NCBI GenBank assembly: GCA_001899635.1
Contig: MKVQ01000005.1
Span: 496,001-560,000, forward strand
From: Myxococcales bacterium 68-20
GTDB lineage: Bacteria > Myxococcota_A > Polyangia > Polyangiales > Polyangiaceae
DNA length: 64,000 nucleotides
Direction: 5' to 3'
Program-made: the position numbers and the translations under genes
Notes under the pieces: generated by a model
Seen by the model: only the letters and a program-made list of their open reading frames with translations
The model's database searches: none
Told to the model about the DNA's origin: nothing
Shown: piece after piece, positions 44,314 through 48,556 of the stretch
How positions within the stretch are numbered: position 1 is the stretch's first letter
Layout: each line of letters starts with the position of its first letter

Positions 44314-45126
44314 TCACCCGAAACGGATCGCCGAGATGCGCGCGCCCATCACGCCGTCGTCGGCGAAGACCTGCTTGCCTCGATCGGTCCCTGCAGCGCC
44401 CGCAGCGACCATCAACGGGAGCAGGTGCTCCTCGCGTGGATGGCTCGCGCGCGCCGACGGCGCTTCCGCCCAGCGCGCGAGCTCGGCGGCGCGTGTGTCG
44501 GGATCCTTCTCGATCGCTGAAGCGAGCCAGCGGTCGAACCGCTGCGAATCCGCCTGGCCGGAGCCGGTCATCAGCCCGCGCATGTTGTGATAGCTCATTC
44601 CGCTGCCGACGATGAGCACGCCTTCGTCGCGCAGCGGCTCGAGCGCGCGGCCGATCGCCACGTGCTCGGCGGGATCGAGGTTCTCCTGGAGGGAGAGCTG
44701 CACCGTCGGGATCCGCGCGTCCGGATAGGCGACCTTCATCGGGATGAAGACGCCGTGGTCGAAGCCGCGCTCGGTCTCGGTCGTCGACGCAATCCCCGCT
44801 GCCGCGAGGAGAGCGCCGACGCGCGCCGCAAGCTCCGGCGACCCCGGCGCGGCCCAGGTGAGCTCGTACGTGTGCTTCGGGAACCCGTAGTAGTCGAAGA
44901 GCAGCGGGGGCGCGGCGGACGCGAGCACCGCCGGCACCCTGGTCTCCCAGTGAGCGGAGACGACGAGGAGCGCCGACGGTGTCCTCGGGAGTGAAGCGTC
45001 GATGCCGCGCAGGAACGCGGCCATGGGCTCCCACGTGTCCCGCGGTCCCATCGTCCACTCCATGAAGAAACACGGCCCGCCGCCATGCGGGATGTACAGC
45101 GTCGGCATTCTGTCCTGCGTGCCCAT
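44314..45126 (-). CDS. DODA/LigB-type extradiol ring-opening dioxygenase
   Basis: A 270-residue cytoplasmic protein of the LigB superfamily (4,5-DOPA dioxygenase, YgiD-like). Metal ligands appear in YIPHGGGPCFFM, LVVSAHWETR and GFDHGVFIPMKVAYPDA, with the distal GSGMSYHNMRGL and REEHLLPLMVAAGA completing the family pattern. The family opens catechol-type rings with non-haem Fe or Zn. ATG 45126 is six residues before the conserved start; upstream in-frame ATGs would add unconserved residues. It converges with the second CapA gene. Confidence 0.9.
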   Translation of the reverse strand: MGTQDRMPTLYIPHGGGPCFFMEWTMGPRDTWEPMAAFLRGIDASLPRTPSALLVVSAHWETRVPAVLASAAPPLLFDYYGFPKHTYELTWAAPGSPELAARVGALLAAAGIASTTETERGFDHGVFIPMKVAYPDARIPTVQLSLQENLDPAEHVAIGRALEPLRDEGVLIVGSGMSYHNMRGLMTGSGQADSQRFDRWLASAIEKDPDTRAAELARWAEAPSARASHPREEHLLPLMVAAGAAGTDRGKQVFADDGVMGARISAIRFG

Positions 45127-45399
45127 GCATCGAAGTGTCGCGTCTGGAACGCGCCCGAACAAGAACGCCCCCTGCACCGCTCCGTTCCGCCACTCGAACA
45201 GTCACGCGCCTCGCTACAAAGCCGGCTTTCCACAGGCCTCGTCGCGCAGCGGGTGGTCACGAACCGAGATCCCGGTGAGTGGGCCGGCGTGGGTCGGTCG
45301 CCGCAGCCGTCCGGCCACGAAACGATCACGTGACAGAATTGTACCCACCGCACTCGCCATGCTCTCGGAAGTCCACCCCGAAAGCCGGCCCACGCCCCG

Positions 45400-45660
45400 A
45401 GCTTCGGCGCACGAACAAACAGACAATCAAACATTCATTTCAAACAACCAAGCACCCAACAATCCGTCAACTCAATCGCCATTGTTATCCACAATCGGCC
45501 TCCGACGCCACGACCAGCACCCGATTCGACCGCACAAAACAAGGGCTTCCGCGACTTCTCACGCTCGATTGCGCACTTCCGCTGTGGACAATACTGTGGA
45601 TAAAAAGTGTTTGAGCGACTCACTATTTGGTTGAACGAACGGACGGTACCCGGCATAACA
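45400..45660. other. Origin-like A/T-richer stretch with DnaA-box-like sites
   Basis: This stretch is visibly poorer in G+C than the rest of the window, with a long purine/pyrimidine-asymmetric run of A- and C-rich sequence (45410-45480). It contains TTATCCACA at 45485-45493 (perfect DnaA box), TGTGGACAA at 45583-45591 (one mismatch, inverted) and TGTGGATAA at 45595-45603 (perfect, inverted); the last two start 12 bases apart. A possible promoter (TTGAAC, 17 bases, CATAAC) is at 45631-45659. It may be a replication origin or another DnaA-binding locus. dnaA, dnaN, gyrB and parAB are not in the window. Confidence 0.5.
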
Positions 45661-45913
45661 CAGCTCATGAAGTTCGCGGCACATCGGGCCGCGGGCTCTC
45701 GGTCGTAGAAGCCGTCAGGGCGCTGCGACCGGCATCGGTGCGAGCGAGGCAATCTGTCCTCGTCGACGGTCGAGTCGGTCGAGCTCGGTGGCGCGCTTGG
45801 GTCGTCAGTCCCAGGCGTGAGCAATCCAACGAGTCAAAAAGGCGTCAGTACTCTCGAATCTGCCACGGAACCCGCGGGTGACCGCACCGTGGCCTTGCAA
45901 TGCCCAACCAAAG

Positions 45914-45942
45914 ACACTTTCCCCAGCCTGGGGACAAAGTGT
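45914..45942. repeat. Bulged 13-bp inverted repeat
   Basis: ACACTTT-CCCCAG pairs with CTGGGG-AC-AAAGTGT, a near-perfect hairpin with a 2-base bulge. It lies in the first part of the gene-free region. It could be an RNA hairpin or a dimeric protein site. Confidence 0.5.
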
Positions 45943-47975
45943 GGGCGGCGTGAGCGAGAGAGCCGGCGTGAAGGCCGGAGGGAGCGATCCCTTCGCGTGG
46001 CATTCCTTCGCGTGTCGTGGCGGTGAAAGGCATCCCGGCCTTCTGGAAGGCGTCGCTCTTCGCGGGGCAACGCCGGAACGAAGACCTCGGTCGGTCCGTC
46101 AGCGTGCAGCGGTTCCTCCGTTGCTCGAAACGCGCCGATGACAGCGGATGTCCGAAGGTCGCCGAGGAGGGGAACGACGTCGGCATGCGCCACAAAGCGT
46201 ATGCACCCGTCGCAGGCACGAGAGATCGTCGCATGCGCCGGTGATGCGTCCTTCGCTCGGTCCTTCGACCCGTGCACGTCGGTCCTCACGTCACGTGAGG
46301 CGTTCGCGGCGGCATCACGGTTGGGCAAACCCACGCAAGTGGGAGGAACCAGCACTGGGGCTGCATCGAACGGACGGAGCGCGGCTCGCCGCATTCCACC
46401 GCTTCCGCGAGGAAGCAGCGTGGCATGTCCAAGAAAAGGAAGGAGGTCGAGGCCTCCGTCCCTGCGAGGATTCGAGAGCTCGGGTTTGGTTGCCCGCACG
46501 TCGATGGTTTGTTGCAGAAGTCGGTAGGCGACGTCTGGTCTCGAATAGGCTCGGCAAACGCGCTCCAAAAAGAGCGGTCAGGGTCGAGTGAACAGGGACC
46601 TAGCTCGAGACGAACGCGGACGGGTGAAACCGCCAGCGGGCGTGTCGAGCGAAGGGACGATTCGCACGTCGGCCTCACCGCTAGTGACGGGAGAGGACCG
46701 GCGCAAGGCTCAGGGTGACGAGAGGTCGTCGTCCAGCGGTCTCCACATCGCCCAACGCGGTGAGGTGGTCGCGGGGCCGGGGCTGTAATGGCCACCGGAT
46801 CCTACGAAGAGTCCCTACCGGCGGAAGGCATCCCGGATCATCCCGAAGCGTCGGCTTTCACGAGACGACGTGGACGGTGATCTCGGCGTTCGCCGCATCC
46901 TCCGACCCGTACCACCCCTTCCAAAACGAAGGACGTACGGCCAGGTTGCAGCTCTTGCGAAGGCGAGAGAGGCGCGAGGGTGAACCAGGAGAGCGCGACA
47001 GGGGTGTCAGAGGCTCGGTCGCAGCAGCGCCGTGGGAAGAAAACGCCCACGCTCGTGACTCAAGCCGCGAGGCAGTAGAGCACGAGGACGACGCGTTGAC
47101 TGACGACCCGCCGAAGCGGTCTCGGACGTCGTGAAACGTCCGGTCCCCCGGAAAGCCGCACGGAGCCTTATTCTCCGTGGGGTGTCCCCGCCGCGAAAGT
47201 GGCGAGAGCAAGCCGGGAACACACGAGGTGCGGGTGCACGCAGTTCGATTGGGTGGCAGACGTCGGTTGAACGCATCGCGCGTCTTCTTCACCGGGAGGT
47301 CGCAAGGCCTGTCGGTGGAACAAAGAGGGCGCTAGCCGGGAGGAAGTCCGTAGCACCGCCTGACGCGGGGCGCGGATGGGTAGAAGGCGAACCGGTGCGC
47401 ATGAGTGAGGTCACAAGCAAGTTTCCTCATGAATGACCTGCGGGTTTCGGCTTGCAGGCTCTCGATACGACGGAAGGCGTTCTCGGGCTCTTGCCCGCCC
47501 TGCCCTCACCGGCAGGGCGACGCGAAGTCCTCTGGCTCACAGGTCAGCCTCCACACCCGTTCTCACCGATCGCAAGGTCGGACGACGGCTGAATGGAGAG
47601 CGCATCGGGCGGACACGGAATCCGACTCGGGCGTGCCTGCGGGTGACGAAGAGAACGTCAGAGGTCGACGTGACTCGGTGAAGGCTCCTCGAGGATCGAG
47701 AAGGTCCAAGGCGAGTCAGCATCCTCGGCGCTCGAAATGGCGCCGGTCTCAGAGGTGCGCCGCATCGCGTTCGGCTGAAGCTGACGACAGCGAATAGCTT
47801 CGTCGACCCTCCTCTCCCCTGACCACGCGAATGGCCGGGGCTGTAGTGAAGGCACCCAAGACTCGAATGCGACGATGGCGCAGGCGGGTGGAAAAGGCCC
47901 CCTGACGCGACGTCCAACGGGGCGGACGGAGATCCGCAACGGAGCGCTAAGCTGCTCCCCACGGAAAGTGAACCC

Positions 47976-48017
47976 CCGCGAGGGCGACCGGGCGACCGGT
48001 TCGCCCTCGCGGCTTTT
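47976..48017 (+). terminator. Strong intrinsic terminator ending the gene-free region
   Basis: CCGCGAGGGCGA and TCGCCCTCGCGG form a perfect 12 bp stem around a 13-base loop, followed by CTTTTTG. It is oriented for plus-strand transcription although no plus-strand protein gene precedes it for more than 3 kb. Confidence 0.8.
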
Positions 48018-48163
48018 TGTGCTCCTGCGGCAGCGTGGCGCGGGAGCGCGATCGCTCCACTCAGGATCTGCATGCTCGTCGTCACCTCGCGACCGCCGTC
48101 CACACGGCGACGCGGCGCATCTCCTCATTTCCTGATGCGCGATCGCACGTCATCCTTGGAATA

Positions 48164-48556
48164 GTGAAGCGCCCCAGCTCGAAAAGCCCACTCGTCCTCG
48201 TCGTCGACGACTACGAGGACACGCGACGGATCTACGCTGACTACCTCCGCTTCGCGGGGTTTCGCGTCGCAGCCGCAAACGACGGCGCCGAGGCGATCGC
48301 GAAGGCGCAGGAGCTCGTCCCCGACGTCGTCGTGATGGACCTCGGGATGCCGGGCGTCGACGGGTGGACAGCGACGCGCGAGCTGAAGAAGGACCCGCGG
48401 ACGAAGAACATCTACGTGATGGCCGTGACCGGGTTCGCCGGAGACGACCGGCGACTCGAAGCATGGCGCGCCGGCTGCGATGCGTTCCTCTCGAAGCCCG
48501 TCCTTCCCGCCGAGCTCGTCAGGCGGATCATGGGACGGCTTACGCGACCAGCCTGA
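48164..48556 (+). CDS. Single-domain response regulator
   Basis: A 130-residue stand-alone receiver (CheY-like). VLVVDDYEDTRRIYADYL gives the acidic pocket, VVVMDLGMPGVDG the phospho-acceptor Asp, VMAVTGFAG the switch Thr and FLSKPVLPAEL the conserved Lys. No output domain follows, so it probably relays a signal to another protein. The GTG start is used because upstream in-frame sequence runs into the terminator region. Its kinase is not adjacent. Confidence 0.9.
   Translation: MKRPSSKSPLVLVVDDYEDTRRIYADYLRFAGFRVAAANDGAEAIAKAQELVPDVVVMDLGMPGVDGWTATRELKKDPRTKNIYVMAVTGFAGDDRRLEAWRAGCDAFLSKPVLPAELVRRIMGRLTRPA

Follow-up and report, generated by a model that had tools for sequence, protein, structure and literature searches.

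A long structured non-coding RNA with DnaA-type boxes at its predicted promoter in Myxococcales bacterium 68-20 and related genomes

Results

Features of the locus

The stretch of DNA analysed here (the window; 64,000 nucleotides, C5:496001-560000) is part of an 11.89 Mb assembly of 52 contigs. The region of interest lies between genes for a LigB-type dioxygenase (44314-45177, minus strand) and a response regulator receiver protein (48017-48556, plus strand), and its main feature is a predicted long structured non-coding RNA on the plus strand (45669-48018), with a 5' end predicted to within a few bases and a 3' end at the T run 48014-48018. Immediately upstream is a promoter-like element (45631-45659, plus strand) composed of TTGAAC (45631-45636), 17 nt, and CATAAC (45654-45659), and upstream of this are two minus-strand DnaA boxes, TGTGGACAA (45583-45591) and TGTGGATAA (45595-45603), the upstream and downstream halves of a double box. 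A distal box, TTATCCACA (45485-45493, plus strand), has the opposite orientation and is located about 184 bp 5' of the RNA start; it borders an A/T-rich patch (45415-45490, no strand assigned) in which TCAAACA-like runs occur.

An earlier note on this DNA proposed the locus as a candidate replication origin or DnaA-binding locus. The three boxes that it listed (45485, 45583 and 45595) have exactly the sequences and coordinates given there, and the latter two are indeed 12 bp apart, start to start, in the same orientation, with a gap of 3 bp between them. All three fall within about 120 bp, a DnaA box cluster of the kind sought in an oriC. Five box sites with no more than one mismatch are present in the window, compared with a shuffle mean of 1.12, and five were reached in two of 100 shuffles. 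The patch is also A/T-richer, as claimed, with 46% GC at 45401-45500 compared with 70% at 44-45 kb and 62-65% at 45-48 kb. Its sequence is poorly conserved (0.30-0.53 at 45409-45498); the distal box, allowing one mismatch, is found at -180 to -184 in eight of nine same-genus loci and is missing in G003.

Perfect TTATCCACA sites number four in the whole assembly. Two are at this locus, 110 bp apart, and the others are on contig C4 (C4:413261; L001, L211), upstream of an ORF that we take to be scpA-like (chromosome segregation), and at an ORF start on contig C14. By our own count TTNTCCACA makes up 30 of 100 listed one-mismatch places in the genome (228 in total), and this type of site is thus also present elsewhere. 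Two other groupings were seen: five TTATCCGCA sites on an 18-bp grid at C1:375494-375592, apparently a short tandem repeat of near-DnaA boxes, and the near-perfect boxes TTTTCCACA, TTCTCCACA and TTTTCCACA within 90 bp at C4:174323-174412, a candidate DnaA-regulated site.

Extent and distribution of the RNA

Fifty homologous sites were fetched with their flanks, and two (L123 and L231) that have neither boxes, promoter nor terminator were dropped as false, such that the resulting number of 48 is partly a matter of choice. These 48 loci come from 25 genera in five families. The 5' element (GAAGTTCGCGG or AAAGTTCGCGG) is present in 18 of 21 stretches, and 16 copies can be traced from it to a hairpin with a GNRA loop, giving lengths of 1.67-2.92 kb. 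In the window this terminator hairpin (loop GCGA) and its T run are at 47976-48018 on the plus strand; the hairpin is found in all 16 full-length copies and is usually accompanied by the T run, which is weak in L061. A generic terminator scan did not list the hairpin at 47976-48012. Among 32 more distant loci the terminator pattern occurs at 1.88-2.22 kb in 12 and at 0.76 kb in L110, and was not found in 19; between +600 and +3000 it is present in 27 of the 48 loci versus one of 44 upstream flanks. A much shorter RNA is suggested for L107-L110, from three genus g20 genomes and G095, which retain the 5' element and boxes; L107-L109 have a common ORF that starts at +1.2 to +1.6 kb, and the RNA is therefore probably shorter in those loci.

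When 45380-45680 was used as a DNA query, 10 of 58 genomes matched, including the source genome; six same-genus matches span 45580-45680, and the other three are short. The full 2.47 kb query matched 20 of 108 family genomes, seven of them (again including the source) nearly end to end and the remainder as short pieces. A model of the 5' 69 nt (R1) matched 93 of 183 genomes of the order at E≤0.01, many of these matches being weak and probably due to chance. At E≤1e-4 it matched 53 of 317 genomes of the class, all within the order except G245, although the matches in G033 and G140, two of the 53, are judged to be false. Matches were followed mostly above about 30 bits, with L230 (25.8 bits), which has boxes, also included. 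Records with the 5' pattern comprise ten MAG contigs labelled Labilithrix sp., Polyangiaceae, Polyangia or Myxococcales. The RNA family occurs in many, but not all, genomes of the order.

Neighbouring genes are not shared widely. No protein group is common to more than 10 of the 48 loci, and the group found at 10 loci has scattered positions; the gene directly upstream is common to nine loci and a second gene to seven, which indicates local synteny in part of the tree.

Coding potential and searches of RNA families

The earlier note had described a gene-free region of 2.5 kb, of which 2.35 kb (45669-48018) is occupied by the predicted structured RNA gene. A Pfam search at E≤0.1 with seven ORFs from within the stretch gave no match, and the ORF lying over the boxes (45002-45634) has only a sub-threshold best match (E 0.012; 15.8 bits versus a cut-off of 27.1). 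Substitutions relative to two same-genus copies are spread evenly over the three codon positions (90/81/85 and 187/180/171) and indels relative to same-genus copies are mostly of 1 nt, which together argue against protein coding, and such a reading was rejected. In four of 16 copies (L050, L052, L055 and L061) the longest ORF is longer than any from 30 mononucleotide shuffles, and in L049 it ties with the largest of these. Among the copies, ORFs give weak, overlapping protein alignments on both strands, which DNA homology alone can explain.

No Rfam match was found at E≤1 in the window between 40 and 52 kb, and a search of 11 homologous loci gave none above the gathering score inside the RNA. 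A match to the Rfam group-II-D1D4-3 intron was observed at L061:1-84 (minus strand), at a contig edge just beyond the RNA terminator. A literature search of titles and abstracts, largely from papers outside subscription, yielded no description of this RNA.

Structure of the RNA

Three domains are predicted, all on the plus strand. Domain I (45711-46152) includes module A (46029-46152), and its helices 45711-16/46019-24 and 46029-35/46146-52 hold in held-out copies. Domain II (46491-47236) is closed by the helix 46491-99/47228-36 and contains module B (46827-47008), a copy of module A that has diverged. Domain III (47249-47859) has a closing helix at 47250-55/47853-58 and an inner helix at 47476-84/47651-59.

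RNAalifold, applied to the 16 copies, gives 65 helices of at least four pairs, 63 of which contain at least one compensated pair by our own count. Since this structure was drawn from the same alignment, a held-out test was run in which a fold derived from seven same-genus copies (660 pairs) was scored on nine copies from other genera. Of the held-out pairs 67.4% are canonical, compared with 38.6-44.1% when partners are slid, and where both bases have changed the values are 59.7% and 38.7-42.5%; 1473 of 4516 held-out cells are not canonical. At least 80% pairing together with at least three compensated pairs was observed in 15 of 104 helices, including 46491-99/47228-36, 46520-28/46814-22, 47250-55/47853-58 and 47476-84/47651-59, and 89 helices fell short of this. 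Both-side changes occur in 30 of 35 pairs of module A and 59 of 79 pairs of domain II, in structures derived from the same alignments as were used for counting; five measures for module A were each reached by none of 500 shuffles. A1 and A3 exclude L066, and A2 excludes L058.

Searched with a model of module A (46010-46158), the RNA also yields module B (46808-46956) at E=1.3e-5, and a second module copy is found at E≤0.0012 in 11 of 16 sources. The apical loops are UUCGCG in module A and UUCACG in module B, and there are conserved segments complementary to each, CGCGAA and CGUGAA respectively. As each loop has its own complementary segment, the difference between modules A and B is itself compensatory, and this hints at loop-loop tertiary contacts in the RNA. 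Hairpins with TTCACG and CGTGAA are found in 32 and 35 of the 48 loci, against six and 13 of 44 flanks. The corresponding numbers for TTCGCG and CGCGAA are 45 and 36 of 48 loci against 29 and 27 of 44 flanks; these motifs are also common in flanks and discriminate poorly, so that the UUCACG/CGUGAA pair is the better supported.

Boxes and the promoter-like element

DnaA-type boxes are located 73-142 bp upstream of the RNA start in 48 of the 50 fetched sites, which are not independent samples, nine of the 48 loci being from one genus. There are 71 TGTGGANAA boxes within 170 bp upstream of the 48 sites, at least one per site and all in a single orientation. Their flanks, 426,682 bp in total, contain no such box in either orientation. 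The box positions fall into groups at -73/-77, -85/-88, -97/-100, -106/-109, -130/-132 and -138/-142, with a period of about 11 bp (R=0.81), and many relatives have one strict box only. The earlier note had named a lack of box conservation in close relatives as a refuting condition; the boxes are conserved, and its designation of a DnaA-binding locus is well supported as a prediction, with position, orientation and phase kept.

The promoter-like element is similarly recurrent. Forty-six of 48 loci have TTG at -38 to -36, versus 101 of 4800 control 60-mers; 47 of 48 reach a promoter score of at least 6/12, versus 353 of 4800 controls, and a 17-nt spacer is best in 32 loci. A generic promoter scan with a threshold of 9/12 matches found none in 45200-48200. 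The boxes have a fixed place relative to a promoter-like element, as is looked for in a DnaA-controlled promoter, and from this geometry we infer that DnaA probably activates it. E. coli DnaA prefers pairs of boxes that are 2 or 3 bp apart (PMC11317965).

Position of the replication origin

A minus-to-plus switch in GC skew is the usual mark of an origin. Skew measured in 20-kb bins is negative on both sides of the RNA locus, in every one of the 26 C5 bins sampled (20 of them contiguous, spanning 200 kb to either side, and six others; one is at -0.0004), and third-position skew compared between strands on C5 agrees in 17 of the 19 bins with data. The skew analysis suggested in the earlier note places the minus-to-plus switch elsewhere, at dnaN on contig C20 (139.9 kb), where 7/7 bins before are negative and 4/4 after are positive, and speaks against an origin at the RNA locus. 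That neither dnaA nor dnaN is nearby was correctly noted: dnaA is on contig C48 and dnaN on C20. The dnaA region was itself considered as an origin and rejected, its skew being negative in 10 of 10 sampled bins with no switch. In four relatives with single-contig assemblies, 1.5-2.8 Mb separates the RNA locus from dnaN. In the complete relative G030, from which 40 stretches were sampled, skew is weak and mixed around the RNA copy and weighs neither way.

The intergenic DNA 5' of dnaN (G000, C20 at about 139.9 kb; L171:1867-2330, L168) is A/T-richer and is conserved in a second same-genus genome. It has weak boxes only, and TTNTNCACA was not found within 20 kb on either side of the skew switch, so the genome has its strongest boxes somewhere other than at the apparent origin. 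Boxes with at most one mismatch are present upstream of dnaN in three relatives of genus g20, and none was found there in G095. No parS site within four mismatches of TGTTTCACGTGAAACA or TGTTCCACGTGGAACA is present in the window, and clustering of parS gave no usable signal (33 forward matches with at most two mismatches versus 47 for a reversed control). An oriC beside dnaN, nearly 2 Mbp from dnaA, has been suggested for Sorangium cellulosum, whose genome is described as having no usual skew inversion (PMC8538405, the review through which the S. cellulosum paper of Gao and Zhang is cited here); the switch at dnaN on C20 agrees with that suggestion. The stretch upstream of dnaN on C20 is a better origin candidate than the RNA locus, and it is very unlikely that the RNA locus is the replication origin.

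Discussion

It is almost certain that this RNA is a structured and conserved element, and control of its promoter by DnaA in this group of soil bacteria is likely, judging from the arrangement of the boxes. Joining the two, we think it probable that the locus represents a new family of giant structured RNA with a promoter controlled, and probably activated, by DnaA. The plus strand at 45669-48018 would encode a single non-coding RNA, the size of an rRNA and highly structured, from a family outside Rfam, transcribed from the sigma70-like promoter at 45631-45659 and ending at the strong terminator. The boxes at 45583 and 45595, with centres about 82 and 70 bp 5' of the start, would act as a DnaA double box at which bound DnaA would most likely activate the promoter from upstream in class-I fashion, class-I activation being the notion behind this reading. 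RNA output would then follow how much DnaA is present or its ATP state, and so be tied to the replication cycle. Our guess is that the RNA may be a scaffold or an RNA-protein particle of duplicated modules that serves a replication or replication-stress programme. To the fuller proposal, in which a new class of rRNA-scale (1.7-2.9 kb) modular structured RNA from myxobacterial relatives with large genomes would be a direct output of DnaA via helically phased double boxes, would have duplicated domains with matched loop-loop contacts (UUCGCG/CGCGAA and UUCACG/CGUGAA), and would form a particle coupling chromosome replication to cell physiology, we give an even chance.

Other accounts of the boxes have to be weighed against DnaA control of the RNA promoter. 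They could be mainly a DnaA sink or reactivation site that tunes initiation elsewhere, similar to datA and DARS, known DnaA-regulating loci, with the RNA gene driven independently or merely modulating DnaA loading. The presence of the genome's best boxes at the RNA locus, with none such at the apparent origin, is compatible with this, as is the 1.5-2.8 Mb between locus and dnaN in the four single-contig relatives. The fixed distance, one orientation and ~11-bp phase to a promoter-like element in 48 loci are, however, requirements of a regulatory site rather than of a sink, and many relatives have a single strict box; we consider a sink unlikely.

It is also conceivable, if decidedly improbable, that the RNA is real and that the TGTGGATAA element is read by a different activator with a similar site and has no link to replication. 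With no TTNTNCACA within 20 kb of the skew switch, DnaA of this lineage may have another preference, which leaves some room for such an activator; but the motif is a DnaA box, with the double spacing of 2-3 bp reported for E. coli DnaA (PMC11317965), and boxes of the same type are upstream of dnaN in three g20 relatives, with a further perfect box upstream of what is, by our own reading, a scpA-like ORF. The notion that the locus is the chromosomal origin with an RNA gene beside it draws on the perfect boxes, the inverted distal box and the A/T-rich patch, and is compatible with the weak and mixed skew near the copy in G030. Against these are the single skew sign in 26 of 26 sampled C5 bins, the agreement of third-position skew between strands in 17 of 19 bins with data, the location of the minus-to-plus switch at dnaN on C20 and the poor conservation of the patch, and there is very little chance that this notion is right.

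Comparison with known systems shows partial likenesses to several. OLE, ROOL and GOLLD are large ornate bacterial RNAs (PMC12286853), and the RNA described here resembles them in its length, in being a single non-coding molecule with elaborate base pairing and no known function, and in having been found by covariation. Many GOLLD RNAs are of more than 800 nt according to the same source, and the present RNA is about two to three times longer; by Rfam it matches none of the three, and it differs in having DnaA boxes at its promoter. ROOL and GOLLD are encoded in prophages and phages (PMC12286853), whereas the 5' pattern of the present RNA has no exact match in IMG/VR, and a phage origin was set aside on this ground. 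The gene for CcnA of Caulobacter crescentus likewise encodes a non-coding RNA and is linked to DnaA boxes and the cell cycle, but CcnA is 182 nt long, located at the origin and presumably activated by CtrA (PMC8959179); the present RNA is more than 10 times longer and away from the skew switch. The box pair 3 bp apart is like those of DnaA-regulated double-box promoters of E. coli (PMC11317965), although here the gene is a giant non-coding RNA and the boxes shift in steps of about 11 bp among relatives. DnaA boxes adjoin an A/T-rich stretch as in a bacterial oriC, such as that proposed beside dnaN in S. cellulosum (PMC8538405), but there is no skew switch at the RNA locus and that of the genome is at dnaN.

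Contrary to a common assumption in origin prediction, the origin need not lie where a genome has its best DnaA boxes, and dnaN is supported as the origin site in a group in which origin calling is difficult (PMC8538405). The RNA is conserved over many genera and absent from Rfam, and if confirmed would be among the longest structured non-ribosomal bacterial RNAs of unknown function (compare the sizes in PMC12286853). The DnaA-type boxes at the promoter in 48 of 50 fetched sites would, if confirmed, connect the replication initiator directly with a giant RNA.
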